The notes beneath the pieces were generated by a model, which was not told the DNA's origin, did no database searches, and saw only the letters and a list, made by a program, of their open reading frames with translations. Positions 2,988-31,084 of a stretch of DNA of 38,058 nucleotides are shown in pieces. The translations under genes were made by a program, and so were the position numbers. Source of the DNA: Sphingomonas sp. Lineage in GTDB: Bacteria > Pseudomonadota > Alphaproteobacteria > Sphingomonadales > Sphingomonadaceae. Each line of letters starts with the position of its first letter. Within the stretch, counting starts at the first letter, position 1. The DNA lies in NCBI GenBank assembly GCA_002707985.1, contig PAOI01000041.1, forward strand, positions 1-38,058, in the 5' to 3' direction.

Positions 2988-4025
2988 CTATGCCGCAAGC
3001 GCCATAAAGCGTGCGACGTCCTGCGGGCCGATCTGCACCCGTGTCTGGCTGCGGAGGGTGTCGCGCCCGAAAGCGCGTAGATCCTCGTTGAAGTCGCCGA
3101 GCTGGGGCGAGATCACGATCGCCTCGATCCCGGCCGCGTTCGCCCGTGCGACGAGACTGTCGCGCGCGCCGTCGCCCGCCGGATCGTTGTCGCGAAGGAT
3201 GTAGAGCCGCCGCAATGTGTCCGGGAACAGGATGGCGGCGAGATGGGCTGCCGAGAGCGCCGCCATCATTGGCATTTCGGGCAAGACCTGTCGGATTGAT
3301 AGTACGGTCTCGATGCCTTCGCCGGCCGCCATCACTTCGCTGCCATGGCCGAAACGGACCGCATTGCCGAGAAGATCGCCCATCGCCCGCCTCGGCGTGT
3401 CGAGAGGCGCCTTGTCCTTGCGTCGGGGATCGAGCCATGTGCGATGCGCCCCGGTGATCCGGTCGCGCAGGTCGGTCACGGCCGCGATCATCGCGGGCCA
3501 GGTCTCGGTCGGGGAATGCTCGTCGGGCCGGTAGTAGCAACGCGGGTGGAAATGCAGGCTTCCGGTTCCGCGTAAATCCGTAATGCCGCGTTCGCGCAGA
3601 TACGATTGCACGAGTGTGCCGGTGATCATCTGCGACATGGCGACCAGGCGACGGGCGGCCTCCGGTGAGCCTTGCGGCGCCGGGCTCTGTCGCTGGTGCT
3701 CGCGGGCCTCCGGCTCGGGCGGTGGCATGCTGAGGAAGGTCCGCGCCTCGCCGGCGACGTCCTTGAAGTCGACTAGGCCGCAGCTTTCGCGGATGACGTC
3801 TAGGAGATCACCATGCTCGCCCGTGGCGGCGTCGGTCCACTTCCCCGCGGGGCCTTTGGGCGAATCCTTGAGCCGGACATACATGGAGCGGCCCGGTGTG
3901 TTGCGCACATCGCCGACCAGCCAGTAGCGGCCCTCGCGCCGCCCGCTCGACAGATAGTGGCGGCACACGGCCTCGGCCTGACGGCCGAGACGGTGCGCGA
4001 GATCGGAAGCGTCCTGACGGGGCAT
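2988..4025 (-). CDS. Toprim/DUF7146-type protein
   Basis: A 345-residue protein. Its start codon at 4025 overlaps the stop codon of the upstream helicase gene by one base (TGATG), with GGGAGG just before it inside that gene, so translation is coupled. The N-terminal third (about 20-100) resembles the DUF7146 region found in plasmid primase-like proteins. The Toprim part follows, with the acidic GEGIET (235-240) and the DNDPAG motif (279-284), which are the expected metal-binding residues. No CHC2 zinc finger or RNA-polymerase-like primase core is evident, so it is probably not a complete primase. It may act in primer-like or nuclease chemistry during element DNA processing. The precise reaction is unknown; the fold assignment is firm. 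Confidence 0.85.
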   Translation of the reverse strand: MPRQDASDLAHRLGRQAEAVCRHYLSSGRREGRYWLVGDVRNTPGRSMYVRLKDSPKGPAGKWTDAATGEHGDLLDVIRESCGLVDFKDVAGEARTFLSMPPPEPEAREHQRQSPAPQGSPEAARRLVAMSQMITGTLVQSYLRERGITDLRGTGSLHFHPRCYYRPDEHSPTETWPAMIAAVTDLRDRITGAHRTWLDPRRKDKAPLDTPRRAMGDLLGNAVRFGHGSEVMAAGEGIETVLSIRQVLPEMPMMAALSAAHLAAILFPDTLRRLYILRDNDPAGDGARDSLVARANAAGIEAIVISPQLGDFNEDLRAFGRDTLRSQTRVQIGPQDVARFMALAA

Positions 4026-7000
4026 CACGCGGCCTCCCGATCGGAGATGCGGGCCACCGGATAGGTGTCGAGCAGCTTGGCCAGCACCGCAGGGCCGCTG
4101 GCGTCGACTGGAACGAAGAAGCGCAGCTTCCACGAGATAATCTCGCTGAAGAGGCCATAGGCACGCAGCCGGTCCCGCATCGCTTCGGTGAAGCCGGTCA
4201 GCTCGAGGCGATGGGCGCTCATGACGCGAGACCGGCGAAGCTGAAGCCCTTCGATCAGATCGATCGTCGTCTTGCCGTCCATGAGCGCGGTGAAAGCCTG
4301 CTCCGGTGCCAGCGACGCGGCCCCCGTCGTCGTGGCGTTCGCCGCCCAGGCGGGCGAGACGCGGCGCCCGATAATGCGCTCACCGGCATCCGTCTGGAGC
4401 CGATAGACGCGCGTCGACTCGTTCGGCAGCCGCTTCCAGATCGGCAACAGCAGGCCGGCGACGACATGGATGGTGCTGTCCGAGAATTCCGGCACGTCGT
4501 TCAGCTCCGCCGACCATGCGGCGGCGAAGGCGGTCCGGTCAGTCTCTTCCCAGTGGGTCTCGCCCATCATGCGCAGCGGGGCATAGTGCTGCTCCATCGG
4601 ACGGATGAGGCAGATGCGGCGCTCGATCTCGCCATCGTCGAGCATGATCGACGGGGCGGGAACCTGCACGGCGGCGCGGCCGGAGCGACCGTTGACCAGC
4701 AGCCGTGCGCGTGGATCGGAGAGATGGTCGAGCGCGTCGGCGAGAGCGGTCGGCCGATTGCGTTCGCGCCGGGTGATGGTGAGCAGCCGGGTCTCGGCGC
4801 CGGTGCCCGGATGGGTATGGATGACCTGGCTATCGGTGACGGCGAAGCTCTCGGCCTGAAGCGTCTCCAGGCCCACGTCATAGACGCCGCTGCGGATCGC
4901 GCCTTCGACCTTTGCCGTCAGGAGCTGCTCGAACGCCGCGAAGAGAATGCCCTGAAGCTCGATGGTGAGCGCCAGGAGGCGGTTGAGGAAGGTCGTGATG
5001 GGCGGCAGATCGTCCTTGATGCCGTTGTCGTCCGTCAGCTTGAGGCCGGTGGCGGATTCGAAGCGATCGAGCGTGCAACCCCCGACCTTATTGCGGATGA
5101 GCAGCAGGTAGAGCTGGCTCAGCGCATCGCGGGCGTATGGACTTTCCAGATTGTCCTCGGGCCGGAACAGGCCCTGGCCTCCGGTCTGGCGCTGCCCGCG
5201 CGTGATGGCGCCGAGCGTGTCGAGACGGCGCGCGATCGTCGAGAGGAAGCGCTTTTCCGCCTTCACATCGGTGGCGATCGGCCGGAACAGCGGCGGCTGC
5301 GCCTGATTGGTGCGATTGGTGCGGCCAAGACCCTGGATCGCGGCATCGGCCTTCCAGCCCGGCTCCAGCAGATAGTGGATGCGTAGACGCTGATTTCGGG
5401 CAGCGAGATCGGCGTGATAGCTGCGTCCCGTGCCGCCGGCGTCGGAGAAGACGAGGATGCGCTTCTGGTCGTCCATGAAGGCGGCTGCTTCGGCGAGATT
5501 GGCCGACGCCGCCCGGTTCTCGACGGCAAGGCGCTCGCCCTTGCGCACCATGCGGCGCGACCGGCCGGTCACCTCGGCGACGATATCGGTGCCGAAGCGC
5601 TGGACGATCTGATCGAGGGCGCCGGGAACCGGCTCAAGCGATGCCAGTCGCTCGATCAGCTCGTCGCGGCGGGCGACGGCTTCCCGGCTTTCGACGGGCT
5701 GGCCATCCCGGAATACCGGCCGCGAGGAGAGATTGCCCTCGCTGTCGGAGAACGGCTCGTAGAGTTGCACAGGGAACGAGTGCTGGAGATACCCCAAGAC
5801 GTACTCACGAGGCGTAATGTCCGCCCTGACGTCGTTCCATTCCTCCGTCGGGATTTCGGCCAGTCGCCGCTCCATCAGGGCTTCGCCGGTCGAGACGATC
5901 TGGATGACGGCGCTGTGCCCGTCGGCGAGGTCCTGCTCGATCGAGCGGATCAGCGTCGGGGTCTTCATGCTGGTCAGCAGATGGCCGAAGAAACGCTGTT
6001 TGGCGCTCTCGAAGGCCGAGCGCGCGGCCGACTTCGCCCGACGGTTCAGCGTGCCGCTGTCGCCGGTGATGTTGGCGGCCTGCATCGCCGCATCGAGATG
6101 ATTGTGGATGATGGCGAAGGCGCCGGCATAGGCGTCGTAGATGCGGGTCTGCTCGGTCGTGAGTTGGTGCTCGACCAGTTCGTATTCGACGCCGTCATAG
6201 GAGAGCGACCGGGCCGTGTAGAGGCCGAGCGCGCGCAGGTCGCGGGCGAGCACTTCCATGGCCGCGACGCCGCCATTGTCGACGGCTTCGACAAACTCGG
6301 CGCGATTGACGAAGGGGAAATCCTCGCCGCCCCACAGGCCGAGCCGCTGGGCATAGGCGAGATTGTGGACGGTGGTCGCGCCGGTCGCCGAGACGTAGAC
6401 GACACGGGCGTTCGGCAGCGCGTGCTGGAGCCTGAGCCCCGCACGACCCTGCTGCGAGGGGGCAACATCGCCCCGTTCTCCCTTGCCGCCGCCGGCGTTC
6501 TGCATCGCGTGGCTTTCGTCGAAAATGATCACTCCGTCGAAATCGGAGCCCAACCACTCGACGATTTGCTTGACGCGCGAAAGCTTCTCCCCACGGTCGT
6601 CGGACCGTAGCGTAGCGTAGGTGGTGAATAGGACGCCTTCGCTGAGCCGGATCGGCGTCCCTTGCGGAAAGCGCGACAGCGGGGTTACCAGAAGGCGCTC
6701 CATGCCGAGGGCCGACCAGTCACGCTGCGCGTCTTCGAGCAGCTTGTCCGACTTGGAGATCCAGACGGCCTTGCGCCGACCCTGGAGCCAGTTGTCGAGG
6801 ATGATGCCGGCGGACTGGCGGCCCTTGCCGGCGCCGGTGCCGTCGCCAAGCATGAAGCCGCGGCGAAAGCGGACGGCGTTCGGTGCGTCGTCGGGCGCAG
6901 CACTGACAAGATCGCCGATCTCGTCCACCGTCCAGGCGCCGGCGAGATAGTCGCCATGGGCCTCGCCAGCATAGATCAGCGTCTCGAGCTGGGCGTCGGA

Positions 7001-8347
7001 GAGGACGCCGTCGGCGACGATGGGGTGGGGAAGCATTGGGCGATAGCTCGGCTTGGGAGGCGCGACCGAGGCCATGGAGGCCGATTGCACGAGCTTGGTG
7101 GGATGCGGCTGACCGTCCGGGATGCGGATCGACTGGAGCGCATAGGGCTCGTAGATCGAGTCCGAGAGACGGCCTCCTTCGGGCGGCATCCAGTCCACCG
7201 TCTCATAGTCGAGCGGGACGCCTTCAATTTCCGCCATTCGCCGGGCGGGCGTGGCGGCCGCAGCTCCGGCGATATAGCCGCGAACGGTGCGCGGCGCGGC
7301 GTCGGGCGCGGTCTTCGGGAGCGCGACGGCCATGCGCGGCGGGACGTCCCGCTCGATCCAGGCAAGCAGCGTCGCCACGTCAGGCGCGATGCCGGCGGAG
7401 GGAGGGAAGCGCGCAGCGTCCTCGGCGAGCGCCTTGTCGATGACGGTCAGGCGCGTTTCGATGGTCGTGCCGTGCTTAGCATAGACCGAGCCTGCGATCG
7501 CCGCGGTGAACACGACGCGGCCGCGCTCCTGCAGCCGGACGAAGCTGTCCCGCCAAGCGGGCAGCTCGGGCGAGAAATTCGCGCCGGTGATCGCCACCAG
7601 GCGGCCGCCCGGCGCCAGCCGTGCCAGCGCCGAGGCGATGTGGCGATAAGCGGCGTTGGCGACGCGTCCGGAGACGTTCGCCATTGCCGAGAATGGCGGG
7701 TTCATGATGACGACGCTGGGAATGGCGCCGCGATCGAGATGATCGTCGATCTGGGCGGCGTCGAAGCGCGTGACGGCAATGGCCGGAAAGAGAGAGGCGA
7801 GCAGATCAGCGCGGGTCTCGGCCAGCTCGTTCAGGATGAGGTCGGACGCGGCGATCTCTGCGAGAACCGCGAGCAGGCCCGTGCCGGCCGAGGGCTCAAG
7901 GACCCGGTCGGCCGGTGTGAGCGATGCGGCGGTCAAGGCCGCCAGACCGAGCGGCGTCGGCGTCGAGAACTGCTGAAGAGCTTGGGCTTCCTCGGACCGG
8001 CGCGTGTGGGCCGGCAGCAGGGCGACGACCTTGGTGAGTGCGGAAAGGCGTGAAGCTGGCGATGCGGCTTTGCGGAAAAGCGCCTTTCCGTATTTTCGCA
8101 AGAACAGGACAGTCGCGACCTCGCAGGCGTCATAGGCCGTCTTCCAGTCCCAGGCACCGGACGCGTCAGATGCGCCGAAGGTTGCCTCCATGGCGACGCG
8201 CAGAGTTGCGGTATCGATTTGTCGGCCCTTTTCAAGATGAGGGAGGAGATGCTCGGCGGCGGTCAGCACGGCGGAGGCCGCAGGGATCGCGGGCGCGAGC
8301 GGAAGCGAGACTGCCGGGACGGCAGCCGGAAGCGGAGTGCGGGGCAT
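4025..8347 (-). CDS. Methyltransferase-strawberry notch helicase fusion (DarB-like)
   Basis: A 1440-residue protein; the start at 8347 (MPRTPLPAAV) has a GAGG upstream. Residues about 120-310 form an S-adenosylmethionine-dependent methyltransferase with EPSAGTG (151-157) and NPPF (216-219), the motif of N6-adenine enzymes. After a linker comes a strawberry-notch type superfamily 2 ATPase: Walker A GDGTGAGKGR (501-510), Walker B DESH (610-613) and SATG (653-656). The second helicase lobe has LVFSDAGGTGRS (965-976) and arginine-finger motif GLGRTNRTNQ (1006-1015). The C-terminal 350 residues are unassigned. The domain order recalls the DarB antirestriction protein of phage P1, so protection of transferred DNA is a reasonable inference. 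It heads an operon with the coupled Toprim gene and has the leader shared with the ParB and DUF932 genes. Confidence 0.85.
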   Translation of the reverse strand: MPRTPLPAAVPAVSLPLAPAIPAASAVLTAAEHLLPHLEKGRQIDTATLRVAMEATFGASDASGAWDWKTAYDACEVATVLFLRKYGKALFRKAASPASRLSALTKVVALLPAHTRRSEEAQALQQFSTPTPLGLAALTAASLTPADRVLEPSAGTGLLAVLAEIAASDLILNELAETRADLLASLFPAIAVTRFDAAQIDDHLDRGAIPSVVIMNPPFSAMANVSGRVANAAYRHIASALARLAPGGRLVAITGANFSPELPAWRDSFVRLQERGRVVFTAAIAGSVYAKHGTTIETRLTVIDKALAEDAARFPPSAGIAPDVATLLAWIERDVPPRMAVALPKTAPDAAPRTVRGYIAGAAAATPARRMAEIEGVPLDYETVDWMPPEGGRLSDSIYEPYALQSIRIPDGQPHPTKLVQSASMASVAPPKPSYRPMLPHPIVADGVLSDAQLETLIYAGEAHGDYLAGAWTVDEIGDLVSAAPDDAPNAVRFRRGFMLGDGTGAGKGRQSAGIILDNWLQGRRKAVWISKSDKLLEDAQRDWSALGMERLLVTPLSRFPQGTPIRLSEGVLFTTYATLRSDDRGEKLSRVKQIVEWLGSDFDGVIIFDESHAMQNAGGGKGERGDVAPSQQGRAGLRLQHALPNARVVYVSATGATTVHNLAYAQRLGLWGGEDFPFVNRAEFVEAVDNGGVAAMEVLARDLRALGLYTARSLSYDGVEYELVEHQLTTEQTRIYDAYAGAFAIIHNHLDAAMQAANITGDSGTLNRRAKSAARSAFESAKQRFFGHLLTSMKTPTLIRSIEQDLADGHSAVIQIVSTGEALMERRLAEIPTEEWNDVRADITPREYVLGYLQHSFPVQLYEPFSDSEGNLSSRPVFRDGQPVESREAVARRDELIERLASLEPVPGALDQIVQRFGTDIVAEVTGRSRRMVRKGERLAVENRAASANLAEAAAFMDDQKRILVFSDAGGTGRSYHADLAARNQRLRIHYLLEPGWKADAAIQGLGRTNRTNQAQPPLFRPIATDVKAEKRFLSTIARRLDTLGAITRGQRQTGGQGLFRPEDNLESPYARDALSQLYLLLIRNKVGGCTLDRFESATGLKLTDDNGIKDDLPPITTFLNRLLALTIELQGILFAAFEQLLTAKVEGAIRSGVYDVGLETLQAESFAVTDSQVIHTHPGTGAETRLLTITRRERNRPTALADALDHLSDPRARLLVNGRSGRAAVQVPAPSIMLDDGEIERRICLIRPMEQHYAPLRMMGETHWEETDRTAFAAAWSAELNDVPEFSDSTIHVVAGLLLPIWKRLPNESTRVYRLQTDAGERIIGRRVSPAWAANATTTGAASLAPEQAFTALMDGKTTIDLIEGLQLRRSRVMSAHRLELTGFTEAMRDRLRAYGLFSEIISWKLRFFVPVDASGPAVLAKLLDTYPVARISDREAA

Positions 8348-8445
8348 AATAGAGACCTCGGAGAGCGTAGACAGGACGAGCCGCCCCGGCGCTCTCTCTC
8401 GACCGGACGGGCTCAAACCCGTCCCGGCCTTGCTCTCACTCTGTC
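8348..8445 (-). promoter_or_regulatory. Structured GAGAG-type leader of the helicase gene
   Basis: The 5' leader contains, in transcription order, AGAGTGAGAG (8433-8442 region), a perfect hairpin of GACGGG with CCCGTC (8406-8423) and a CGAGAGAGAGC tract (8391-8401). These elements recur before the ParB gene (11634) and the DUF932 gene (13000). The repeat of an arrangement, not only of short words, argues for a shared regulatory RNA or operator. Confidence 0.5.
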
Positions 8446-8520
8446 GCGGACCAGGCCGGCTCATCGCGGCGCCTCAGATCACCGGAGTTCACCGTGCCGC
8501 GTACGAAGGAGGCGGGCGAG

Positions 8521-8634
8521 ATGAAGGGAAGGGTGATCGGCATCGTGGCGGCGGGTTGCCTAGTGGTCGGGTCCGGCACAGGATTCGTCCTCCGGCCTTT
8601 GATTGCGCCGGTGTCCGTTCGCCCGCTGTCGTAG
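8521..8634 (+). CDS. Candidate 37-residue membrane or exported peptide
   Basis: A short open frame with an almost ideal ribosome binding site, AAGGAGG at 8506-8512, eight bases before the ATG. The product begins MKGRVIGIVAAGCLVVGSG: two basic residues followed by a hydrophobic run of about 15 residues, as in a signal peptide or single membrane anchor, and ends with a short basic/hydrophobic tail. A Cys at residue 13 lies in a weak lipobox-like context (VAAGC). It is divergent from the helicase gene. No homologue is recognised. It could instead be the remnant of a longer secreted protein. The strong ribosome binding site is the main support. Confidence 0.4.
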   Translation: MKGRVIGIVAAGCLVVGSGTGFVLRPLIAPVSVRPLS

Positions 8635-9100
8635 CCCGGGTCGCGCAGCCACTAAGGACGAGGCGACTGGCGCGGTTCGGCGTCACCGCCTGTTCACGGG
8701 ACCGCTAGCCAATGCGACGCTGAAGCTCGGCGACTGTTCACCAGCGGAGTCAGCCCGGGCGTGACCTGTATGACGCAAGTTGTGATGGATTCGACGACGC
8801 CGAACGCGATGCCACAGAGTTGGCCGATCGGATTTGCTTGCGTCAACGACCAATGGGGTCGCGGTTTGGTAGTTTGCGTGACGCCGAACCTTGAAAGGTC
8901 TACGTGCGAGCTCCATATCCTGGGCGATTCAGGGTCACCGCAAATAACGCGGCATTGAGAAGAACCGCCTGCAGCGAGAGCTGTAGTAGCTGAACTGCCC
9001 GGTCAACGGGCCGCCGCTGATCTGTCCCGCGACTGCGCGGGCGGGTCTCGGCTGCGCGGTTCACCGATCCCCTAAACACCATCGAACCGCTTCACTAGCG
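8635..9100. other. Intergenic stretch with small hairpins, no convincing gene
   Basis: Open frames here on both strands are short and lack ribosome binding sites. Two GC-rich inverted repeats lie near its right end: GCCCG/CGGGC (8997-9011) and CCCGCG/CGCGGG (9026-9041). They could be leader structures for the gene at 9113. Confidence 0.4.
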
Positions 9101-9112
9101 AAGGAGGTTCTG

Positions 9113-9451
9113 ATGGCTCAGATCCTAAAATTTCCATCTAAGAAAATTGAACCGGTCACCGTCAGGTCTCGGTTGAAGCATCGCATCGCTGTCGAAATTC
9201 TTGACGACGTGCGGCTCAGACGCACGCGCTGGATTGTGCAGTTCGAGATCCAGGAGGCTGGAGGCTACGACGCCCTCAAAGGGTTCAAGGATGCCGCGGT
9301 TGCCGCTGGATATCGTCACCGTTTCTGGGTGAGCGGGACGCATGTCTTGCGGCAGTTCGTGGCGGAGACGGCTGGACTTGTCGCAACTGGGAAGGTCGCC
9401 GTCTGGATTGACGGTGTACGGGTGCAGCCGCGCGTTAAGCGCAGCGCATAA
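9113..9451 (+). CDS. Conserved-looking hypothetical protein, 112 residues
   Basis: A 112-residue soluble protein with an excellent ribosome binding site, AAGGAGG at 9101-9107, five bases before the ATG. It starts MAQILKFPSKKIEPVTVRSR, continues with a basic helical region, and then has an alternating alpha/beta pattern with aromatic residues (YRHRFWVSGTHVLRQFV at about 63-79). The C-terminus is basic (RVQPRVKRSA), which would suit nucleic-acid binding, but no known domain is recognised. It is the only rightward gene between the helicase and ParB operons and converges on the ParB gene, sharing the hairpin at 9457-9488. Its gene neighbourhood suggests an element maintenance or regulation role, which is only inference. 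Confidence 0.7.
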   Translation: MAQILKFPSKKIEPVTVRSRLKHRIAVEILDDVRLRRTRWIVQFEIQEAGGYDALKGFKDAAVAAGYRHRFWVSGTHVLRQFVAETAGLVATGKVAVWIDGVRVQPRVKRSA

Positions 9452-9456
9452 AAAGA

Positions 9457-9488
9457 GGGGCTGGAGCGACACTCGTCGCTCCAGCCCC
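9457..9488 (-). terminator. Intrinsic terminator of the ParB-like gene
   Basis: A perfect 13-base-pair stem, GGGGCTGGAGCGA (9457-9469) with its complement (9476-9488), closes a six-base loop. Read on the minus strand it is followed by TCTTTTT, a proper terminator tail for the leftward ParB gene. The same stem follows the stop codon of the rightward 112-residue gene, so it may also act in that direction, though without a T-run. Confidence 0.85.
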
Positions 9489-9492
9489 TAGC

Positions 9493-11634
9493 TCACTCGG
9501 CCGCTACGAGGTGGCGTTCGTCGTCTTCGCCATCGGCTGTGATTTCCTCGTCGTCGTCGGCGAGGAAGTCGGGCAGCTCAGCCCCTTCGTCCTTGCCGCT
9601 GGCGTCGGTGTCCGGTGTGGCCGCGTCGGGCTCAGCGACCAGACGCAACGGCTCCGGCAACCAGCCGGTGTCCGCCAGCAGTCGTTCTGCCTCCTTGGCC
9701 ATATCGCCCTTCTTCAGATGGTCAATGAGCTGCGCAGCCTGTTCGCCGGCGCCTTCGCGGACTGCCTGAAGGATGCGGGGCTTGGTGACGCGGCCCAGAT
9801 AGTTGCCAACCGTTGGACGCCAGCCCACGTCCACCATGTCGAGGCCGGTGGCGCGCGCCAGTCGGTCCGCCTGGCCAAGCCGCATGTCGAGGCCATGCTG
9901 CGAGACGCCGTTGCCGCCGTAAGGGTTCGGCTTCTCGTAGAGCGCGTTGACGCCGTAGCTCACGCAATGCGCCAGGAGCGCCATGCGGCTGGCGTCATCG
10001 AGCGCCGCCAGCCAGTCCCAGAGCGCGTCGTCCTCGGCGGGAATGTCGCCCGCCCAGGCCTCGTGACGACCGTGAACTGCGCGAGCGGACGGGCTGTCGT
10101 TCAACGCATTGTCCTGCACCGGGAAGAAGACGTGGCTGACGGAGGCCTCCATCGCGCCCTTGTACATGCGGTGCTGGAAGGTGTCGGAGACCAGCTTGTG
10201 CAGGAGCGCGGTCATGGCGACGTGCGGATTGTCGGCCAGCGCATTGCGCAGCGCCAGCGTGCGATGGGCCGTCAGCTCGGTGAGGAGGCGATCTGGCAGC
10301 GGCTTGATCGCATCGTCCTCCTCCGGCTCTGCGGGCTGGCCGCCGATCGTGATGACGGTCCGCTGCACGGTCGGTTCGGCCGGATCTCCGCCGACTTCCA
10401 CATCGCCGCCCGCTTCCACGCCAATCTCGCCCTCGGGGACGATCGGCGCTTCATCCTCCGAACGGACATAGCCGCGATCGATGTCGAGACTGCCGTCATG
10501 GCTGATGCTGATGAAGACGCCCGCACGGGCGATATCATCGGTCTCGTAGCGGACCGGTCGCGCCTCGAGGGCGGCGAGCGCCGTCTCGATCTCACCGAGC
10601 CGCTGGTCGATCTCGTCCGGCAGCTCGTCGGCGTCCTGATATTCGGCCTCGAGCTTCTGTTGCTCGGCGATGAGCGCCTCAATCGTTGCCTGTTCCTCCG
10701 CGGTCAGGTCGAGGGCCTCGCCCTGCAGTTCGCGCAGGCCGCGGGTCGCGTCATAGGGGAAGCTGACAGCGACCTCGATCCACTTCCACCCTTCGGCGGC
10801 GACCTCGTCGGCCGTGGCCTTCAGCTTCTCAGCGGCCAAGCGGTCGAGCAGCGGCGGATCCTGCAGCCAGCCGCCATCGTCGGACTGGAAGAGGTCGCGC
10901 ATGGTGACGCCGCCGGCGGCCTCGTACGCCCCGATGCCGACGAAGACGGCCCGCTTGTCCGAGGCGCGCACCGTAGTCTCGGTGAGCATGCGCCGGATCT
11001 GATACGGCTCCTTTGACCAGGCGTCCTTGATCGCATCCCAGACCTGGTCCTGACGGGCGTGATCGGACGACACCGTGAATGCCATCAGCTGCTCCAGCGT
11101 CATGCCATCCTCGGCATAGACTTTCAGCAGCGCCGGCGATGCGGCGGCCAGGCGAAGCCGCTGTTTCACGACCTGAACCGGCACGAAGAAGGCGGCTGCA
11201 ATCTCTTCCTCGGACATGCCCTTGTTGCGCATGTTCTGAAAGGCGCGGAATTGATCGAGCGGGTGCAACGGCGCGCGTTCGATGTTCTCCGCCAACGACA
11301 CCTCCTCGGGGAGGATCGCGCCGGCGCGCTCGCGTAACACACACGGCACGGGCGCGACCTTGGCGAGACGCTTCTGCTTCACCAGCAGTTCGAGCGCGCG
11401 GAAGCGGCGGCCGCCGGCGGGCACCTCGAACATGCCGGTCTCCACGCCCTCGGCGTCAACGACGGGAAAGACGCTGAGACTCTGGATCAGGCCGCGACGC
11501 GCGATCGAGGCTGCCAGGTCCTCGATCGAGATGCCGGCCTTCACGCGCCGGACGTTGGACTGGCTGAGCACCAGCTTGTTGAAGGGGATGTCGCGCGAGG
11601 ACGACAGGATGATCTTCTGAACGGCAGTAGCCAT
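9493..11634 (-). CDS. Large orphan ParB/RepB/Spo0J-family protein
   Basis: A 713-residue protein. Residues about 10-115 form the ParB N-terminal CTPase domain, with GGRRFRAL (74-81, the GERRxRA-like motif) and ENIERAPLHPLDQ (116-128). A helix-turn-helix follows (about 137-165: GMSEEEIAAAFFVPVQVVKQRL). The rest is far longer than in chromosomal ParB (about 300 residues): a charged coiled-coil-like part at about 305-355, an acidic Gly-rich linker, and a helical C-terminal region ending in an acidic tail. No ParA lies in the window, so it may act as a DNA-loading or regulatory factor of the element instead of in classical segregation. The gene has a structured leader of the shared type and an intrinsic terminator, so it is probably a single-gene unit. 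Confidence 0.85.
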   Translation of the reverse strand: MATAVQKIILSSSRDIPFNKLVLSQSNVRRVKAGISIEDLAASIARRGLIQSLSVFPVVDAEGVETGMFEVPAGGRRFRALELLVKQKRLAKVAPVPCVLRERAGAILPEEVSLAENIERAPLHPLDQFRAFQNMRNKGMSEEEIAAAFFVPVQVVKQRLRLAAASPALLKVYAEDGMTLEQLMAFTVSSDHARQDQVWDAIKDAWSKEPYQIRRMLTETTVRASDKRAVFVGIGAYEAAGGVTMRDLFQSDDGGWLQDPPLLDRLAAEKLKATADEVAAEGWKWIEVAVSFPYDATRGLRELQGEALDLTAEEQATIEALIAEQQKLEAEYQDADELPDEIDQRLGEIETALAALEARPVRYETDDIARAGVFISISHDGSLDIDRGYVRSEDEAPIVPEGEIGVEAGGDVEVGGDPAEPTVQRTVITIGGQPAEPEEDDAIKPLPDRLLTELTAHRTLALRNALADNPHVAMTALLHKLVSDTFQHRMYKGAMEASVSHVFFPVQDNALNDSPSARAVHGRHEAWAGDIPAEDDALWDWLAALDDASRMALLAHCVSYGVNALYEKPNPYGGNGVSQHGLDMRLGQADRLARATGLDMVDVGWRPTVGNYLGRVTKPRILQAVREGAGEQAAQLIDHLKKGDMAKEAERLLADTGWLPEPLRLVAEPDAATPDTDASGKDEGAELPDFLADDDEEITADGEDDERHLVAAE

Positions 11635-11725
11635 CGGGATTTACTCCGTGACGGGCGGCCGAGAGACTCTCTCTCAACCTCCGACCCGTCACGAAGCGAA
11701 GCGCCGCCCTCTTCCTCTAAAGGGG
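11635..11725 (-). promoter_or_regulatory. Structured GAGAG-type leader of the ParB-like gene
   Basis: GTGACGGG (11648-11655) pairs with CCCGTCAC (11685-11692), enclosing a second hairpin of GAGAGA (11661-11666) with TCTCTC (11668-11673). Further upstream in the transcript lies an AGAGGAAGAGGG stretch (about 11708-11720). The order matches the leaders of the genes starting at 8347 and 13000. The ribosome binding site (GGAG) follows the outer stem directly. Confidence 0.55.
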
Positions 11726-11806
11726 ACAGCGCCACGGAACGGAATTGGGACACGCGGAAGCGCAAAGCCGGAGACACGGAAAACCGCATCCCCGGCTTCG
11801 CGGAAA

Positions 11807-13000
11807 TCAGGCGGCTCGATCGAGTAGCTTCTTGGCCTTGCCCTCCATGTCGAGGCGGGCGTCCTGATGCGGCTTGTCGCGCGCGACGGCAGTAATACCC
11901 TGCACGAAATCGAAGATGGATTCAGGCGGGCGACCTTCCTCTGCCAGCACCCTGTCGATGATCTTGCCGGTCTCGGCCTTGGAGAAGCCACGCCGACGCA
12001 AGAAGTCAGTGCGGTCTTCGTCCGTTCTGGCGACGATCCGCTCGCGGGCCGCCTTGATGCCGTTGACGAATGGCAGGGGCGAGGAGTTCGCGAAGTTCAG
12101 CAGCGCCGGGGCCGCCTCGTGCGCGAAGCGGTTGGCAGCATATTTGGAGTGGCGGATGGTGATTTCCTCGAAATCCTCCACGCCCCACAAATTGCGGTTC
12201 TGGCAGACGGCCCGGAGATAGAAGCTCGCCATGCCGAGCGTCTTGGCGCCGACCTCGGAATTCCAGCAATAGAAGCCCCGGAAATAGAGGTCGGGCGATC
12301 CGTCCGGCAGTCGGCCGGCCTCAATCGGATTCAGGTCATCGACTAGGAACAGGAACACGTCACGATCGGAGGCGTAGAGCGTCGTCGTGTCCTTGGTGAT
12401 ATCGATGCGCGGATTGTAAATGCCGGTCGACCAGTCGAGCACGCCGGGGACTTTCCATCGGGTGTCGCCCGTGCCGTTGCCGGCGATGCGCTGCACGGCT
12501 TCCACTAGCTCCGCGTCGAATATCCTCCCGTAATCCGGGCCGGTGACGGCGCGCAGTTCCGTGCGGCCGTCGTCGGTTTCTAGCGTCTTGATCTGTTCGG
12601 CGCGATTGGAGGTCAGGCCATATTGGAGATTGATGGCGGCGAGCGGGGCCGGAAGTTGGCGTAAATAGGCGGCGGGAGCGCCGACGAGCCCGGCGAGCTG
12701 GCCGAAGGACCAGTGTGTCGGCGCAATAGCCGCATCGGTGCCGGGCAGGATCAGGGCCAACCGCTCCGGATCGTTACGGTTTGCCTCGACATGGATCAGC
12801 GCGCTTTCGACCACGCGGGTCCGGCTGCGATCGGCGCGGTCGCGCACCGACCTGGCCAGTTCTGACAGTGAAAGGTAGCGCTCGTCGGCCGGACGCGAGA
12901 ACCATTCGGACGAAACGCGGCCGATCCGCTCGCCACGGCTAACATCCACCTTATAACCGCCACGCGTATCACGGCGCGCATCGAGAACCTGCATGATCAT
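11807..13000 (-). CDS. DUF932 (plasmid/phage-type) protein
   Basis: A 397-residue protein assigned to DUF932 by overall pattern: an N-terminal segment resembling the family's SSEWFSRPADERYLSL opening, then THWSFGQLAGLVGAPAAYL and the conserved centre with LDWSTG and FRGFYCWNSEVGAKTLGM. The family is carried by phages, plasmids and integrative elements and lacks an agreed function. The start at 13000 has GGAG nine bases upstream. A GTG at 13015 and an ATG at 12994 are alternatives. The gene lies upstream of the ParB gene on the same strand, separated by 172 bases containing a leader, so the two are probably transcribed or regulated in parallel. Its own leader is of the shared GAGAG type. The assignment is good; the role is unknown. 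Confidence 0.8.
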   Translation of the reverse strand: MIMQVLDARRDTRGGYKVDVSRGERIGRVSSEWFSRPADERYLSLSELARSVRDRADRSRTRVVESALIHVEANRNDPERLALILPGTDAAIAPTHWSFGQLAGLVGAPAAYLRQLPAPLAAINLQYGLTSNRAEQIKTLETDDGRTELRAVTGPDYGRIFDAELVEAVQRIAGNGTGDTRWKVPGVLDWSTGIYNPRIDITKDTTTLYASDRDVFLFLVDDLNPIEAGRLPDGSPDLYFRGFYCWNSEVGAKTLGMASFYLRAVCQNRNLWGVEDFEEITIRHSKYAANRFAHEAAPALLNFANSSPLPFVNGIKAARERIVARTDEDRTDFLRRRGFSKAETGKIIDRVLAEEGRPPESIFDFVQGITAVARDKPHQDARLDMEGKAKKLLDRAA

Positions 13001-13090
13001 GGGACCAATCTCCACGACGGGCGCGGGAGCCTCTCTCCCAGCTTTTCACCCGTCACGGAAACGGGTCCGCACTCTCACTCTCAAGGGGCG
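13001..13090 (-). promoter_or_regulatory. Structured GAGAG-type leader of the DUF932 gene, with alternative stems
   Basis: In transcript order: GAGAGTGAGAG (about 13072-13082), ACCCGT/ACGGGT hairpin (13048-13066), then GTGACGGGTG pairing with CGCCCGTCGTG (13013-13056) around an inner hairpin GGGAG/CTCCC (13025-13039). The middle ACGGGT segment can pair with either side, so the two stems exclude each other. One of them ends at the ribosome binding site. This resembles a switchable leader. Confidence 0.5.
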
Positions 13091-13272
13091 TTGCGGGGTC
13101 TCCCCGCAGAAGGGGTCGGTCGAGACCTCGGGCTCGGCCGCAGGGGAAGGCTTTCCCCCGCATTTCTCGTCACTTTATCGCAGGCGTCCGCGCAGGTAGT
13201 TATCCTCACCGACGAGGGAGCGAGCCGGAAGCCGCGCTCGGGTTCGCAACACCATTCGGCATCGGTCTCCAT

Positions 13273-13989
13273 TTAGAGCAACTCGCGCTCCAACTCATCC
13301 TTCCGGCTGCGCCAGTCGGGCATTATCCGGCTCAACAAGTCTTGCCATCCCGGGCCGTGATCCGGATGCAAGGCATGTGTAAGCTCATGGGCAATGACGT
13401 AATCGATCAACGAAGGCGAAGCGCGGATCAGCTCAAGATTGAGAACGAGCGCGCCTTTGGCCGTGAAGCTACCCCATCTGTGCGTCATTTGGCGAACGAC
13501 CAGCCGAGGTCGCTCAATGCCGAGCCTTTCGAACGGTGGCAGCACGGCGGCCAGCCGCTCGGGGAACACGCGATGGGCGTGGAGGGCGTACCAGTGCCGC
13601 AACACCGTGCGACGGAATATCAAACCCTTGTCCTGTGGTAGCCTGAGGATGATCCGGTCGCCGTCGATAGTCACGTCAATCGTCGCGCCCGGCTGACAAA
13701 GAAGCCGATACGGTCGTCCGAGCAGGAGGTGCGTCTCGCCGCTTTCGTACTGCCGCAGGGGCGTGCGGGGCCGCCACCGGTCGAACCGGGCTTGCTGACG
13801 AACGATCCAGGCGCCGCGCCGCCGCACCCGGCTGACGATGTCGGCGTCTTGCGCGTGTGTCGGGGCGGAAACGACGACTTCACCGTCGGGCGTCACCGCA
13901 ATACGCAAAGTACGCCGCTCGGACCGTTCCACCGAGAATGCGATCGAAGCTCCACCCCAATCAAACGCAAGGTCACTGGATCCGGCCAT
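13273..13989 (-). CDS. YgjP/DUF45-type M48 zinc metallopeptidase
   Basis: A 238-residue protein with the YgjP-like fold. The active site is HELTH (201-205), whose two His bind zinc and whose Glu is catalytic, with a downstream His in DHGPGW (His211) as likely third ligand. The preceding RWGSFTAKGALVLNLELIRA stretch is the usual strand-helix context. The start at 13989 overlaps the 3' end of hsdR by 17 bases and gives a normal N-terminus (MAGSSDLAF). A start at 14025 is possible. The gene is thus translated with hsdR as the last gene of the type I restriction operon. Peptidases of this family are often found next to hsdR, where they may control restriction subunit levels. That role is inferred. 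Confidence 0.88.
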   Translation of the reverse strand: MAGSSDLAFDWGGASIAFSVERSERRTLRIAVTPDGEVVVSAPTHAQDADIVSRVRRRGAWIVRQQARFDRWRPRTPLRQYESGETHLLLGRPYRLLCQPGATIDVTIDGDRIILRLPQDKGLIFRRTVLRHWYALHAHRVFPERLAAVLPPFERLGIERPRLVVRQMTHRWGSFTAKGALVLNLELIRASPSLIDYVIAHELTHALHPDHGPGWQDLLSRIMPDWRSRKDELERELL

Positions 13990-16900
13990 CGTCCGCCATC
14001 CGCACGCGCGCTGAGGCAATGACATCGTCCATGATCGCGTCGAGCACTGCCGGATCGACTGCGAGTTTCCGTCGTCCGATCACCTCATCGAAGAAGAAGT
14101 CGTCGATATCGTTCCGAATTCGGTTCTCAGTGTCCCGATCGCTCTGCCAGCCAATCACGCGGTGCTGAGCAACGATCCGGGTGACCGCTTCCGCGATATC
14201 GACCGCGACTCCGTCGCGATCGAAGCCAGCCTTCGCGAGCTCGCGGCGTGCGATACCCCAGAAGGCGGTTTCGTGGCTCTTACCGCGAATCGCTTCCGGT
14301 GTTGGGTCGTCGGCGTCCTCGCGCCGTTCGGCGGAATCCCGGAGCCGGCGCACTTCGGCCAAATAAGCCTTCTCTTCCAGACGGCCTCTCCGGAACGCGT
14401 CGATAGCGTCCCGGATCAGTTTGGAAAATTTCTCGAAGAAGACGGGATCCTGCTCCCATTTCTCTTCGATTACCTGCAGGGCACGGTGGGCAATCTCGTC
14501 GGCGATGGAAGCGTCGGAGCGAGTTTTGCCCGCGCGTGCCGCCTCGATCGCGCCTTCGTCGAACACATTCAGCGGCTCGACGACCGTGATCACCTCGTGC
14601 GCAGTTACGTGCTGATCAAGCAGCGTCCGAACGCGGTGCTCATAGTCTGACCAATCTACCTTTTCCGCATAACGGGCCCGGACATGCTCCCTGAGCGCTA
14701 CGAAACGTTTTTCGTCAGTCCGCCATCGTTGGAGACGCTCGGGCGGAGTTTCCTCCTGGAAGGTGCGCGACGACAGCGCAACGGTGAGACAGCGCGAGAA
14801 CTGGCCAAGCCTGCGGTAGAACTCTTCCCGCAGCGCCTCGTCGATCAACGCCTTGGCGTAGGCCTCCTCGTCGAAGCGGTTCGTGATCCCGCTGAACAAA
14901 TCGAGGAGCGCTGCGTGCAGCGACGGCAGACGACGGGCCTCATCTGCCACATCGGTCAAAGCTTTCGCCAATTCCTCATCGTCAAAGGCCGCGAGTGCGT
15001 CGTTCGCGCTCAGGGCGTCGCCCAGACTTCTGAGAACCCCACAATAGTCGATGATGTAGCCGAAGGGTTTCGGCGGTGCGCCCTCTTCGTCGAAAATACG
15101 GTTCACGCGGGCGATCGCTTGCAGCAATCCATGCTCTTTCAGAGGCTTGGCGAGGTAGAGGACCGTGTTGCGTGGCGCGTCGAAGCCGGTCAGCAGCTTG
15201 TCGACCACGATCAGGAGATCAGGGTCACCTGGTCCCTTGAACGCGTCGATGATTCCTTTGTTGTAGGTTTCCTCGCCTCTGTAACGCGCCATCATGCGAC
15301 GCCAGAATGCGACGACAACATCGTCTACCCCCTCATCAATGTCCGTGTCGCCTTCTCTCTGATCGGGAGCGGAGATGATGACTTCGGCGCTGATCTCACC
15401 GAATTCGTCGATCAGACGCTTCAAAATGATGGCGTCCCGTTTGGAGGGTGCCACGAGTTGCCCTTTTAGGCCCGAACCCTTGAAGTGTTCGGTGAAGTGC
15501 TGGCTGACATCGAACGCGATGCATTTTAGCCGCGACGCGACGCCGGCTATTGCGCGCGGACGGCTCATCTTGCGCTTCAGGTCATTAGCCTGGGCAGAGG
15601 ACAGTCCACGGGTAACGCGGTCGAACCAGATGTCGATCGCCTGTCCATCGACGTCCTCCTCGACGTGTCGGCCTTCATAGAGGAGAGGAACAACGGCGCC
15701 ATCGCCCACGGCGTCGCGCATCGAGTAGACCGGGTCGAAGAGCGGTCCGAACTGGCGAAAGGTGTTCCGCTCGCGCTTGGCGATCGGCGTGCCGGTGAAG
15801 CCGATGAAACACGCTTGCGGGAAGACCTCACGCATGCGGGCGTGGAGGCTTTCAAGGTCGCCGTACTGGCTCCGATGGCTCTCGTCGACGAGTACGAATA
15901 TGTCGCTGCTTCGGTCGACAACCCGCCGCTTGCCGAGCGCCGCACGGAATTTGTGAATGACTGTCGTGATCACTCGGGCGCGCTCCTCAATCAACTCGAT
16001 GAGGTGCTCGCCGGTTCGGGCGCGGTGAGGGGCAAGTCCGGTGGCTGCGAAAGTGCGGGCAATTTGGTCGTCGAGGTCAGTACGGTCCGTTACGAGCACG
16101 AGGCGCGCGCCGTTAACGGCGGCGGTCAGAGTGCGGGCAAGCATGACCATGGTCAGCGACTTGCCCGATCCTTGCGTGTGCCAGACGACGCCGCCGGCCC
16201 GGCGCCCGTTTTCGAGCTTCTGGACGCGGCCGAGCACGCTGTTGATCGCAAACACCTGCTGGTGGCGCGCGACCTTCTTCACTGGTCCATCGAACAGGGT
16301 GAAGCGCCGCGCCATGTCCAACAGGCGTTCCGGCCGGAAAAGGGCGACGAGGGTCTCGTCCAGTCGCGTAGCTTCGCGGCCTTGTTCAGCTAGGGCTTCG
16401 AAACGCCGACGGTGCGGGGCGAAGTCGTCGAATATCTGCTTGGCTTCGATGGAGTCGAGCGGACGGGCGACCACTTTCCTCGTGAAGTCGGGAGCGTCTT
16501 CCCGCTCTCTCCAACTCGACCAGAACTTTAGCGGCGTGCCGACCGTTGCGTAGCGCGGCTCATGAGGGTTCGCCGCAAGGACGAGTTGGACCGAGAAGAA
16601 CAGATTCGGGCAGCCTACGTCGGCCTTTTGGTTGCGGATGGTCTGCGTGATACCCTGTTCGGTCTTCTCCCGTGACGATTTGACCTCGATAACGGCGAAC
16701 GGGATGCCGTTTACGAAAAGGACGAGGTCGGGCCGAATTGAACCGCCGCCGGGCCACTCGACCGGATACTCGGCCGTCATATGGAAGGCGTTCGCGCGCC
16801 AGTCGTCCCAGTCGATATAGCGGAAAGGCCATTCGCGAGCCGTGTCGTCGATTGTCTGCGGCAGAGCGATGCCGAGCTGAAGGAGGTCTGTCACCACCTC

Positions 16901-17188
16901 GTTTGTCCGAAGCACACCATCATACCTGACGCCAGACAGCCGCCGGATCGCCGTTTCGATGTTTGCTTCCGAGAACAGGTGGCGTCGATCACGCCAACTG
17001 ATGTGGTTCAGTCGTGCCAACTGTTTGCGCAAGATGTCATCTAGGAGCACATGGCTACGTCGCCCTTGACGCATCCTATCGACGTCGGCGCGGTTGATAT
17101 AATGCCATCCTAACGATGACAGAGTCCCTAGGGTCGCGAGCTGGGCTCCGCCGGCCTCTGAAAGCGCAAACTCGGGGGAGGTGCTCAT
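13973..17188 (-). CDS. hsdR: Type I restriction endonuclease, R subunit
   Basis: A 1071-residue motor-nuclease subunit. The N-terminal PD-(D/E)xK nuclease has Asp154 and EVK (168-170). The superfamily 2 translocase has Walker A HTQGSGKS (337-344), motif DESH (435-438), FTGTP (464-468) and, later, LLTGFDAP and the arginine motif QAIARVNRIF. A helical C-terminal region follows, which in this family binds the methyltransferase. The protein cleaves unmodified DNA at a distance from the recognition site after ATP-driven translocation. Its ATG overlaps the hsdS stop codon (ATGA), and the zinc peptidase gene overlaps its own end, so all are translated in concert. All motifs look intact; no frameshift is seen. 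Confidence 0.95.
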   Translation of the reverse strand: MSTSPEFALSEAGGAQLATLGTLSSLGWHYINRADVDRMRQGRRSHVLLDDILRKQLARLNHISWRDRRHLFSEANIETAIRRLSGVRYDGVLRTNEVVTDLLQLGIALPQTIDDTAREWPFRYIDWDDWRANAFHMTAEYPVEWPGGGSIRPDLVLFVNGIPFAVIEVKSSREKTEQGITQTIRNQKADVGCPNLFFSVQLVLAANPHEPRYATVGTPLKFWSSWREREDAPDFTRKVVARPLDSIEAKQIFDDFAPHRRRFEALAEQGREATRLDETLVALFRPERLLDMARRFTLFDGPVKKVARHQQVFAINSVLGRVQKLENGRRAGGVVWHTQGSGKSLTMVMLARTLTAAVNGARLVLVTDRTDLDDQIARTFAATGLAPHRARTGEHLIELIEERARVITTVIHKFRAALGKRRVVDRSSDIFVLVDESHRSQYGDLESLHARMREVFPQACFIGFTGTPIAKRERNTFRQFGPLFDPVYSMRDAVGDGAVVPLLYEGRHVEEDVDGQAIDIWFDRVTRGLSSAQANDLKRKMSRPRAIAGVASRLKCIAFDVSQHFTEHFKGSGLKGQLVAPSKRDAIILKRLIDEFGEISAEVIISAPDQREGDTDIDEGVDDVVVAFWRRMMARYRGEETYNKGIIDAFKGPGDPDLLIVVDKLLTGFDAPRNTVLYLAKPLKEHGLLQAIARVNRIFDEEGAPPKPFGYIIDYCGVLRSLGDALSANDALAAFDDEELAKALTDVADEARRLPSLHAALLDLFSGITNRFDEEAYAKALIDEALREEFYRRLGQFSRCLTVALSSRTFQEETPPERLQRWRTDEKRFVALREHVRARYAEKVDWSDYEHRVRTLLDQHVTAHEVITVVEPLNVFDEGAIEAARAGKTRSDASIADEIAHRALQVIEEKWEQDPVFFEKFSKLIRDAIDAFRRGRLEEKAYLAEVRRLRDSAERREDADDPTPEAIRGKSHETAFWGIARRELAKAGFDRDGVAVDIAEAVTRIVAQHRVIGWQSDRDTENRIRNDIDDFFFDEVIGRRKLAVDPAVLDAIMDDVIASARVRMADDGRIQ

Positions 17189-19943: not shown

Positions 19944-19947
19944 AGAT

Positions 19948-20505
19948 TTATCTTTCGGTTGAAACGCGTAGCGCTTCCAGGATCTGAAGATCAGCCGCCG
20001 TCGCATGGCGCTCAGCCAGTTGGATCAGCAGCTCGCGATGGGTTCGATGCGCGCGTGCGAGCTGACCGATGGCGCGCTGCCGTTCGAGCGGAAGGTCGGG
20101 CAGGTCGAGTTGGGCAATATCATCACGGGCGATGCGGGGCAGAGAGGCGCCGGCGGTCGACGCGCGCAGTCTGACGCCCGTTTGAGGTAACAGGAGAAAG
20201 GCCAGCAGAAATGAAGGGTCAAGTCGGGTCGCTTCCGGCCGAACCAAGTATAGATCGAGGCTCGCATAAGCGCCGAAAAGATCCTCATCAGCCTCGGCGG
20301 CAAGCGTTCGCTCGCCTCGTGCGGCGACCAAGATGTCACCCGCTTGAATGGGTAGCGCACGGGCGACGAGCGGCCGCTCCCCAATTGTGAGGTCTTTCCG
20401 AGCGCCAGTGAGATCGCGAATCTGAACGAAACGGACGGGGTCGTCCCGCAACTTGTCCGGAGCAACACCGGTAGCGATTAACGCGAACTTTGAGAGAGCG
20501 ACCAT
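19948..20505 (-). CDS. Half-length type I specificity subunit (single recognition domain)
   Basis: A 185-residue protein with one target recognition domain (1-135) followed by one conserved spacer helix. LPDLPLERQRAIGQL (136-150) closely matches LPDLPLQRSIGQALL in the first half of the neighbouring HsdS. The start at 20505 (MVALSKFALI) has AAGG about eight bases upstream. It is the first gene of the operon and ends four bases before hsdM. Half subunits can dimerise to rebuild a symmetrical specificity unit, as shown for naturally truncated HsdS proteins, so it may give the single HsdM/HsdR set a second target. It could also be a relic or a regulator. The intact frame and tight spacing argue that it is expressed. 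Confidence 0.85.
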   Translation of the reverse strand: MVALSKFALIATGVAPDKLRDDPVRFVQIRDLTGARKDLTIGERPLVARALPIQAGDILVAARGERTLAAEADEDLFGAYASLDLYLVRPEATRLDPSFLLAFLLLPQTGVRLRASTAGASLPRIARDDIAQLDLPDLPLERQRAIGQLARAHRTHRELLIQLAERHATAADLQILEALRVSTER

Positions 20506-30944: not shown

Positions 30945-31084
30945 GGCGTTTTCTCCTGTTCCGCAACTGGGATCGGTCGAGGAGAAACGGGGATCGTTTG
31001 CTGGGATCGGAAAGCCGCTTTCAACCCTTCTAACCGCTCCCAATTTGCCATAACCGCCTCCTGTACGCAATGCGCGAAAAGCGG

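Follow-up and report, generated by a model that had tools for sequence, protein, structure and literature searches.

How conjugative elements keep anti-restriction genes silent and then express them suddenly has been answered for F, by single-stranded DNA (ssDNA) promoters, and for p576, by a repressor acting on DNA. The same question is open for other elements such as pLS20, where a fold as ssDNA or RNA is predicted for the repeated sequence EGeRS1, whose mechanism is given as unknown in the available part of the report (PMC8708921). In that part, its authors state that they are without evidence for action as ssDNA or RNA and consider an ssDNA promoter highly unlikely (PMC8708921). ArdC, RadC and ParB domains have been discussed as conflict proteins that phages and conjugative elements deploy early (PMC5512222, available portion), and ArdC of R388 is required in the recipient (PMC7213743, available portion). 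Here we describe a 38,058-nucleotide stretch of Sphingomonas sp. (assembly GCA_002707985.1, contig PAOI01000041.1; hereafter the window) in which three neighbouring minus-strand genes, DUF932-like, ParB-like and strawberry-notch methyltransferase/helicase (starts at 13000, 11634 and 8347, respectively), are each preceded by a short structured leader. Our comparison of leader sequences shows two leader types recurring before unrelated genes of one module, which suggests a folded control segment common to probable establishment genes that would be switched together.

A sequence-only reading of the window had proposed that three unlinked genes share one structured leader. All three leaders were found where it placed them, on the minus strand, but the genes are three neighbours in one module. 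The claim of a single structure holds for the ParB-like and DUF932-like genes, whose leaders (type A) fit one covariance model, R1, at 79.5 bits (E 6.7e-25) and 69.2 bits (E 3.4e-21), scores that are not independent because both leaders are among its 15 seeds. It fails for the helicase leader (type B), which has the common parts and a different fold, scored just 13.6 bits (E 0.36) with R1 and needed its own model, R2 (99.1 bits, as a seed of that model). The outer stem previously noticed in two of the three leaders agrees with two type A leaders and one type B leader. The observation is thus confirmed as real and larger than first reported, and the interpretation given with it is partly supported.

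Type A leaders consist of a tag, AGAGNNAGAG, followed by a hairpin, GTGACGGG...AGAGN...CCCGTCRYGGAG, with the ribosome-binding site in the stem. In the window, the ParB-like hairpin has the apical loop AGAGT (11666-11670) and the DUF932 hairpin the loop AGAGG (13030-13034), and the GGAG ribosome-binding sites (11644-11647 and 13010-13013, respectively) lie within the stems. The pattern AGAGKRAGAG, followed 10-30 nt on by GACGGG, has two window matches, at these two leaders, versus 0.02 expected. Exact copies of AGAGNNAGAG number three on both strands of the window, one per leader and nowhere else; since shuffling expects 0.88 copies and reaches at least three in 8 of 100 shuffles, the count is weak evidence by itself, while the positions are not. 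The motif was absent from the 20 largest families returned by a generic repeat finder run on the window.

Beyond the window, a search with the hairpin pattern gave 16 matches in 9 of 147 genomes of the order, versus one genome with a reversed control pattern. Fifteen of the matches became the seeds of R1; the other (L003), which stands before a 19-aa frame without a fitting ribosome-binding site, was judged a chance match and dropped. At E 0.01, R1 matched 44 of 385 genomes of the class, the weakest probably by chance, and an improved model, R3, matched 28 of the 385 at E 0.001, including one genome (G506) at just 31.3 bits. Among 299 genomes of the phylum, R1 matched 28 at E 0.001, of which 27 were the window's own genome or members of its genus or class; the single match outside the class scored 22.2 bits, the share of the 299 that lies outside the class being unstated. 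Within the window's own genome, R1 was strong only for the two window copies, and its next match scored 20.9 bits.

The family also recurs at loci found by protein. When the ParB-like protein was used as a tblastn query, the type A hairpin preceded the ParB-like gene in all 80 loci taken, the 80 closest of at least 575 relatives, with the window counted separately. We take the genera of these relatives to belong to the Hyphomicrobiales, Sphingomonadales, Rhodospirillales and kin, Caulobacterales and Rhodobacterales; some records carry names from other groups (e.g., a Salinicola metagenome-assembled genome). Over 164 type A matches, window included, the next gene was ParB-like in 81, ArdC in 46, DUF932 in 23, a 182-residue protein in 5, RadC-like in 3 (with weak matches of 16-21 bits), helicase in 2 (also weak) and another gene in 4. 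The ArdC, RadC and 182-residue calls were made by sequence pattern, with Pfam confirming ArdC in two examples (ArdcN, MPTase-PolyVal) and RadC in one. A further 61 tag places in later loci preceded ParB (26), DUF932 (12), ArdC (12), helicase (8), RadC (1) and other genes (2). In 140 of 153 leaders of the ParB, ArdC, DUF932 and 182-residue genes, the tag keeps a position of -25 to -27 relative to the hairpin, and 217 of the 241 exact tags on both strands of 1.28 Mb of loci lie inside leaders (one of the 217 within a hairpin and 12 classified by eye). The element ends on GGAG 7-9 nt before ATG in 98 of 100 leaders.

Several further features of type A loci deserve record. The protein of about 182 residues, which carries a full type A leader in L095 (11573-12121) and also in L086, L094, L069 and L070, had no Pfam match in its L095 copy and is a candidate new establishment gene. 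A protein of 120-128 residues follows a variant hairpin in L118 (1971-2050) and L121 (1945-2024); GACGGG/CCCGTC is retained there and the GAGAG parts are not, and the 120-residue protein had no Pfam match. DUF932 and ArdC leaders have an extra conserved stretch 5' of the tag (CTTCTGCGGGGAGACCCCGCAACGCCCC, a small hairpin; about 13083-13120 in the window), which ParB leaders are without in the rows shown. A leader peptide was considered and rejected because there is no constant frame between the GTG of GTGACGGG and the ATG, their distance modulo 3 being 1, 0 and 2 in 45, 30 and 25 of 100 leaders.

That the leader structure acts as sense-strand RNA rather than as a DNA operator is well supported by comparison of these sequences. 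We aligned 100 type A leaders without regard to structure (alignment A6, from 200 matches dereplicated at 88% identity), after removing three of a first set (two helicase leaders and the divergent ArdC leader L070) and ten of a second (reverse-strand or non-leader places and one cut-off leader). RNAalifold returned the same hairpin from A6, with 96.8% of cells paired and changes on both sides in 12 of the 14 pairs. Two-sided changes filled 136 cells (cells, not independent events) against 45.4 (standard deviation 9.4) in shuffled alignments, a value reached by none of 500 shuffles, and sliding the partner positions abolished the signal. Covariation, whose absence would have spoken against the sequence-only reading, is therefore present; nor is the likeness confined to GAGAG tracts, since the stem around GAGAG occurs in 48 sequence versions and the apical loop begins with AGAG in 82 of the 100 leaders. 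The inner stem alternates between GC, AU and GU pairs across leaders.

The two strands are not equivalent in this pairing. Among non-Watson-Crick cells, again counted as cells, G-U outnumbered A-C by 516 to 13 (of 2352) in a second alignment (A3, the 150 best of 201 matches, 118 of them distinct), by 208 to 23 (of 1391) in A6 and by 103 to 10 (of 948) in the type B alignment A5. The two variable letters of the 3' arm likewise change almost only in ways that keep RNA pairing (G 70, A 27, C 2, gap 1; C 70, T 29, G 1). A DNA operator would make G-U and A-C equivalent and a structure on the opposite strand would reverse them, so the asymmetry favors sense RNA. Folded as antisense ssDNA with DNA parameters, the leaders averaged -16.7 versus -21.3 kcal/mol for the sense strand, which folded better in 98 of 100. 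The sequence-only reading had left the choice between an RNA structure and a repeated operator bound by one element protein; structure-blind covariation, the G-U/A-C asymmetry and the placement on the ribosome-binding site support the former, and the asymmetry disfavors the latter at the DNA level. Comparison thus shows the structure to be conserved as sense RNA, strongly for type A and moderately for type B.

Control by type A leaders would likely be translational, as modeled from predicted folds in which GGAG pairs with a pyrimidine-rich stretch. The mean pairing probability of the Shine-Dalgarno (SD) sequence was 0.88, versus 0.54 with shuffled upstream letters (single letters, ten shuffles per leader); it was higher than in the shuffles in 97 of 100 leaders and at least 0.5 in 97 of 100.

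The helicase leader belongs, on sequence comparison, to a second, related family that shares the tag, GACGGG and GAGAGAG parts and folds differently. Anchoring by helicase tblastn gave matches in 76 of 83 sources and 68 distinct leaders, with the order tag, GGCCGGGACGGG-TTTGAGCC, CGGTCGAGAGAGAGCGCC, GGCTCGTCC, CCGCTCTCC, GAGG, ATG. The exact tag is present in 60 of the 68, a relaxed tag in all 68 and GAGAGAG in 67. For 56 of them (alignment A5, dereplicated at 93%), RNAalifold gave a consensus of four helices, in which 96.1% of cells pair and six pairs have changed on both sides. R2, built from helicase leaders and run on 48 sources, found unseeded copies before an ArdB-like gene at four loci (L043, L045, L048 and L051; 55-97 bits), where Pfam Antirestrict was checked for the L043 copy, and copies at 49.5 bits before a PAPS-reductase-like gene in L057 and L134, a likeness judged by eye and without a Pfam match. 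Its weaker matches, at 18-24 bits, were to 23 leaders of type A and to a single further place (L135, 39736). All 15 of the 385 class genomes matched by R2 at E 0.001 are within the 28 that R3 matched. Alone, the window helicase leader has a fold z of -1.16, no better than most shuffles. Its CGCTCTC segment, 5' of the ribosome-binding site, has two partners, the GAGAGAG loop in the single-sequence fold and the tag in the consensus, and this alternative pairing may represent a switch. A run of at least five T ends 12-28 nt 5' of the tag in 27 of the 68 helicase leaders (e.g., upstream in L047 and L087), looks terminator-like where inspected and leaves little space for an ordinary promoter in between.

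Table 1 Genes, tags and structured leaders of the window.
Feature	Coordinates	Strand	Basis
Strawberry-notch type methyltransferase/helicase gene	4025..8347	-	Pfam AAA_34, Helicase_C_4; start ATG at 8347
Helicase leader CGCTCTCC, then ribosome-binding site GAGG (8356-8359)	8356..8367	-	Consensus fold pairs CTC with tag
Type B leader of helicase gene	8348..8442	-	R2 match 8342-8452, 99.1 bits (seed); A5 alignment and pair counts
Helicase leader conserved core GGCCGGGACGGGTTTGAGCCCGTCCGGTCGAGAGAGAGCGCC including GAGAGAG loop	8388..8429	-	Alignment of helicase leaders
Helicase (type B) leader tag AGAGTGAGAG	8433..8442	-	Exact tag match
ParB-like gene	9493..11634	-	ParB_N 24.2 bits, slightly under Pfam cut-off 26.3; tblastn relatives
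ParB-like type A hairpin	11644..11696	-	Fold z -3.48; R1 79.5 bits (seed)
ParB-like (type A) leader tag AGAGGAAGAG	11709..11718	-	Tag and pattern match
DUF932-like gene	11807..13000	-	Weak Pfam PF06067, 17.4 bits, under cut-off 23
DUF932 type A hairpin	13010..13060	-	Fold z -3.00; R1 69.2 bits (seed)
DUF932 (type A) leader tag AGAGTGAGAG	13072..13081	-	Tag and pattern match

Gene order and position suggest that the leader-bearing genes look like the establishment (anti-restriction) set of conjugative elements, on the leading side of the transfer origin (oriT). Eight annotated plasmid stretches (L134, L135, L161-L166) were compared, in two of which the gene preceding ParB is labeled DUF932. The one-strand order ArdC and/or DUF932, ParB, helicase, toprim, DUF2493 is found in five (L134, L135, L163, L165 and L166); the helicase of L162 and the toprim gene of L164 are missing from an incomplete gene table, and L161 has ParB alone. 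In four of the five (L134, L163, L165 and L166), which also encode a MOBP relaxase, the module lies upstream of replication genes, a signal peptidase, a lytic transglycosylase, the relaxase and TraG, with trb genes following in three (the L166 stretch ends too early). Between the transglycosylase and the relaxase, on the strand opposite the relaxase, each of these four 50-kb stretches has a single TTTATC[CT]TGCC, a sequence found five times in 2.1 Mb overall and which we take to resemble the RP4 nic site. Were this site nic, the module would be the first part to enter, with its template on the transferred strand.

Other parts of the window hold genes of defense and mobility. A Gabija-like defense pair lies at 21145-25436 on the plus strand (PADLOC GajA 927 bits, GajB 831 bits). 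On the minus strand are a type I restriction set (13973-20006; HsdR-like, specificity and methylase genes), which a YgjP-like metallopeptidase gene (13273-14025) adjoins, and a YhcG-type PDDEXK nuclease gene with a tyrosine-type integrase gene (28360-31070). The latter region is probably one end of an integrated element; chromosomal-looking genes, YdbH-like (31781-34927) and ATP synthase A (36050-36799), lie near the integrase. A strong terminator-like hairpin of 15 pairs (9456-9489, minus strand) directly follows the ParB-like gene and also stands at the end of a convergent 112-aa frame (9113-9451).

Taken together, these comparisons make it reasonably probable, in our view, that the leaders work in cis as part of the mRNA, serving an establishment regulon of alphaproteobacterial conjugative elements through translational control via one AGAG-recognizing factor. 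Coordinated control is inferred from the reuse of the leaders on many genes. Type A genes would be translationally off by default, with the ribosome-binding site predicted to be locked at the base of the long hairpin, and type B leaders are predicted to leave it mostly free. A putative trans-acting RNA-binding factor would open, or further close, the type A hairpin by reading repeated AGAG units, two in the tag and one in the apical loop. During transfer, the recipient would receive DNA but none of the putative factor stocked in the donor; the level of the factor would then differ between donor and recipient, conceivably producing a burst of ArdC, ArdB, ParB-like, DUF932 and helicase proteins on entry. 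A more specific version, which we regard as doubtful, is a zygotic RNA switch: an AGAG-binding protein of the element or host would silence the regulon in established cells and be absent or scarce on entry, and opposite SD defaults would order helicase and ArdB relative to ParB, DUF932 and ArdC.

Several points weigh against translational control by a common factor and leading-side establishment. All A6 sequences are matches of the hairpin model and so biased to paired sequences, A3 was fitted to that model, and the loci found by protein rather than by hairpin are limited to the helicase leaders and the 80 ParB loci, themselves the closest relatives; the counts are of cells, which are not independent events. 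Type B covariation is moderate, with nine two-sided cells versus 4.2 in shuffles, a value reached by 4 of 500. The type B SD is less paired than in shuffles (0.43 versus 0.645; higher in just 13 of 54 leaders, and at least 0.5 in 25 of 54, 2 of 56 having been dropped for want of a recognized site); since this type leaves its ribosome-binding site mostly free, a locked SD was rejected as the mechanism common to both types. As to where transcription starts, sigma-70-like TTGACA/TATAAT pairs number 0 in window positions 8300-13400, versus 0.8 in shuffles. The argument for a leading-side position depends on likeness to a nic consensus: the relaxed motif is present in 4 of 4 plasmids and the stricter [CT]ATCCTG[CT] in 1 of 4, L163 and L165 are 89% identical at the site and leave about three independent cases, and the motif was examined in the four MOBP plasmids of the eight, some of the others carrying Ti-type relaxases.

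Of the other explanations, the one we give most room, while thinking it unlikely, is a passive insulator: the hairpin would merely silence read-through translation without any trans factor, the establishment promoter being located within or beyond the leader. IS10 transposase, whose translation is subject to fold-back inhibition, offers a model for such an arrangement, and the predicted locking of the SD by type A hairpins, the T runs (terminator-like where inspected) 5' of the tag in 27 of the 68 helicase leaders and the reported block of read-through expression by EGeRS1 of pLS20 (PMC8708921, available part) would fit it. It leaves unexplained the strict spacing of the tag and the AGAGN loop (82 of 100), no promoter-like site was found at window positions 8300-13400, and the type B SD is mostly free. 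An operator in double-stranded DNA, at which an element protein binds inverted repeat and tag and controls transcription of all copies, has a precedent in Reg of p576 (PMC8708921, in the portion available) and would suit the near-palindromic GTGACGGG/CCCGTCAC and the high sequence conservation of tag and arms. We nevertheless consider it improbable, because the 3' arm letters change almost solely to keep RNA pairing, G-U cells exceed A-C cells by 516 to 13, the inner stem covaries while its letters vary, and ending on GGAG 7-9 nt from ATG (98 of 100) is unusual for an operator.

Less probable again is an ssDNA promoter of the Frpo/ssi kind, which would allow early transcription of the transferred strand ahead of second-strand synthesis. 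The gene set is like the leading-region anti-defense genes described in the available part of PMC11541004, and the nic-like site would give the module a leading-side position in which the transferred strand serves as template. That strand, whose identity here depends on the nic-like motif, is the complement, on which sense G-U pairs become A-C mismatches and folding is worse in 98 of 100 leaders; transcription would need to start within the leader, and the scan of positions 8300-13400 gave no TTGACA/TATAAT-like pair. It is very improbable that the leader itself senses a small molecule or temperature: conserved letters in the internal loop and apical loop and an SD within a stem would suit a riboswitch or RNA thermometer, but Rfam models of either kind stayed under threshold in our scans, a whole leader of about -50 kcal/mol is very stable for a thermometer, and the target genes share a situation, entry of the element, rather than a metabolite. 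We give practically no weight to the idea that low-complexity GAGAG tracts are alike by chance or that one leader was duplicated recently. In the rows shown, the likeness of DUF932 and ArdC leaders extends further 5', pointing to some copying from one gene to another; covariation and loop conservation contradict chance or duplication as the explanation, as does the excess of pattern matches (9 of 147 genomes versus 1 with the reversed control).

The preferred reading, translational control of an establishment regulon through these leaders, concerns a short RNA, supported by covariation, in elements of several alphaproteobacterial orders and of a size that suits direct probing. The leader picked out ArdB, RadC-like and unknown genes as probable set members and so may be usable for finding new anti-defense genes.

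The radC RNA motif precedes radC, antirestriction and DNA-modifying genes. Its Rfam model (RF01754, gathering score 40 bits) was a candidate identity for these leaders and was rejected: 0 of 10 genomes exceeded the cut-off, the window had no match at E 5, and the places listed in the 10 genomes, up to E 10, do not include any of these leaders. The dauA RNA (RF04311, gathering score 45 bits) gave 17.3 bits (E 1.4) at the DUF932 leader when the input was 181 bases, and was likewise rejected; in 10 leader-bearing genomes it had 0 matches over the cut-off and six weak places, none of them a leader. A search of Rfam, which the sequence-only reading had suggested, found no family over its gathering score in the window (Rfam 15, E up to 5), sub-threshold matches only at 12 + 12 loci, and a best score of 18.3 bits against a threshold of 80 on small stretches around the three window leaders. 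Among the papers listed by the open-access literature search, none has a title or abstract opening that describes these leaders; the search gave nothing for DUF932 with "RNA motif" and nothing for "radC motif", and the available portions of PMC11963761 and PMC8627217 make no mention of ArdC, ParB or antirestriction. As far as scanned, and judged by sequence, the leaders are a two-type RNA family outside Rfam, on an establishment gene set.

Among described systems, the radC RNA motif resembles these leaders in being a structured leader in Proteobacteria (PMC2864571, available part), and differs in its 149-position model, which had no match over its cut-off in the 10 genomes. Frpo/ssi sequences of F-like leading regions are likewise folded sequences reused before several anti-defense or establishment genes; according to the accessible text, Frpo has -35 and -10 elements and works in single-stranded transferred DNA (PMC11541004), whereas in these leaders the pairing suits the opposite (sense) strand and has the ribosome-binding site at its end. 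The establishment regulon of p576 (EGeRS2/Reg), as far as the available part describes it, also includes ardC and is defined by a common upstream sequence, but that sequence is a promoter with a protein repressor on DNA (PMC8708921), and these leaders would act as RNA. EGeRS1 is, in the part seen of the same report, a repeated conserved sequence with inverted repeats just 5' of the likely ribosome-binding site of several establishment operons, including that of ardC, and our leaders too are a repeated structured sequence directly 5' of the ribosome-binding sites of several genes, ardC among them. EGeRS1 differs in its length of 420-750 bp, its Bacillus host and its 62-95% identity within pLS20 (PMC8708921, available part), versus leaders of about 100 nt in Alphaproteobacteria, of two types and with covariation showing RNA. 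By this analogy, drawn from description, EGeRS1 of the pLS20 family is the closest precedent for the leaders described here.

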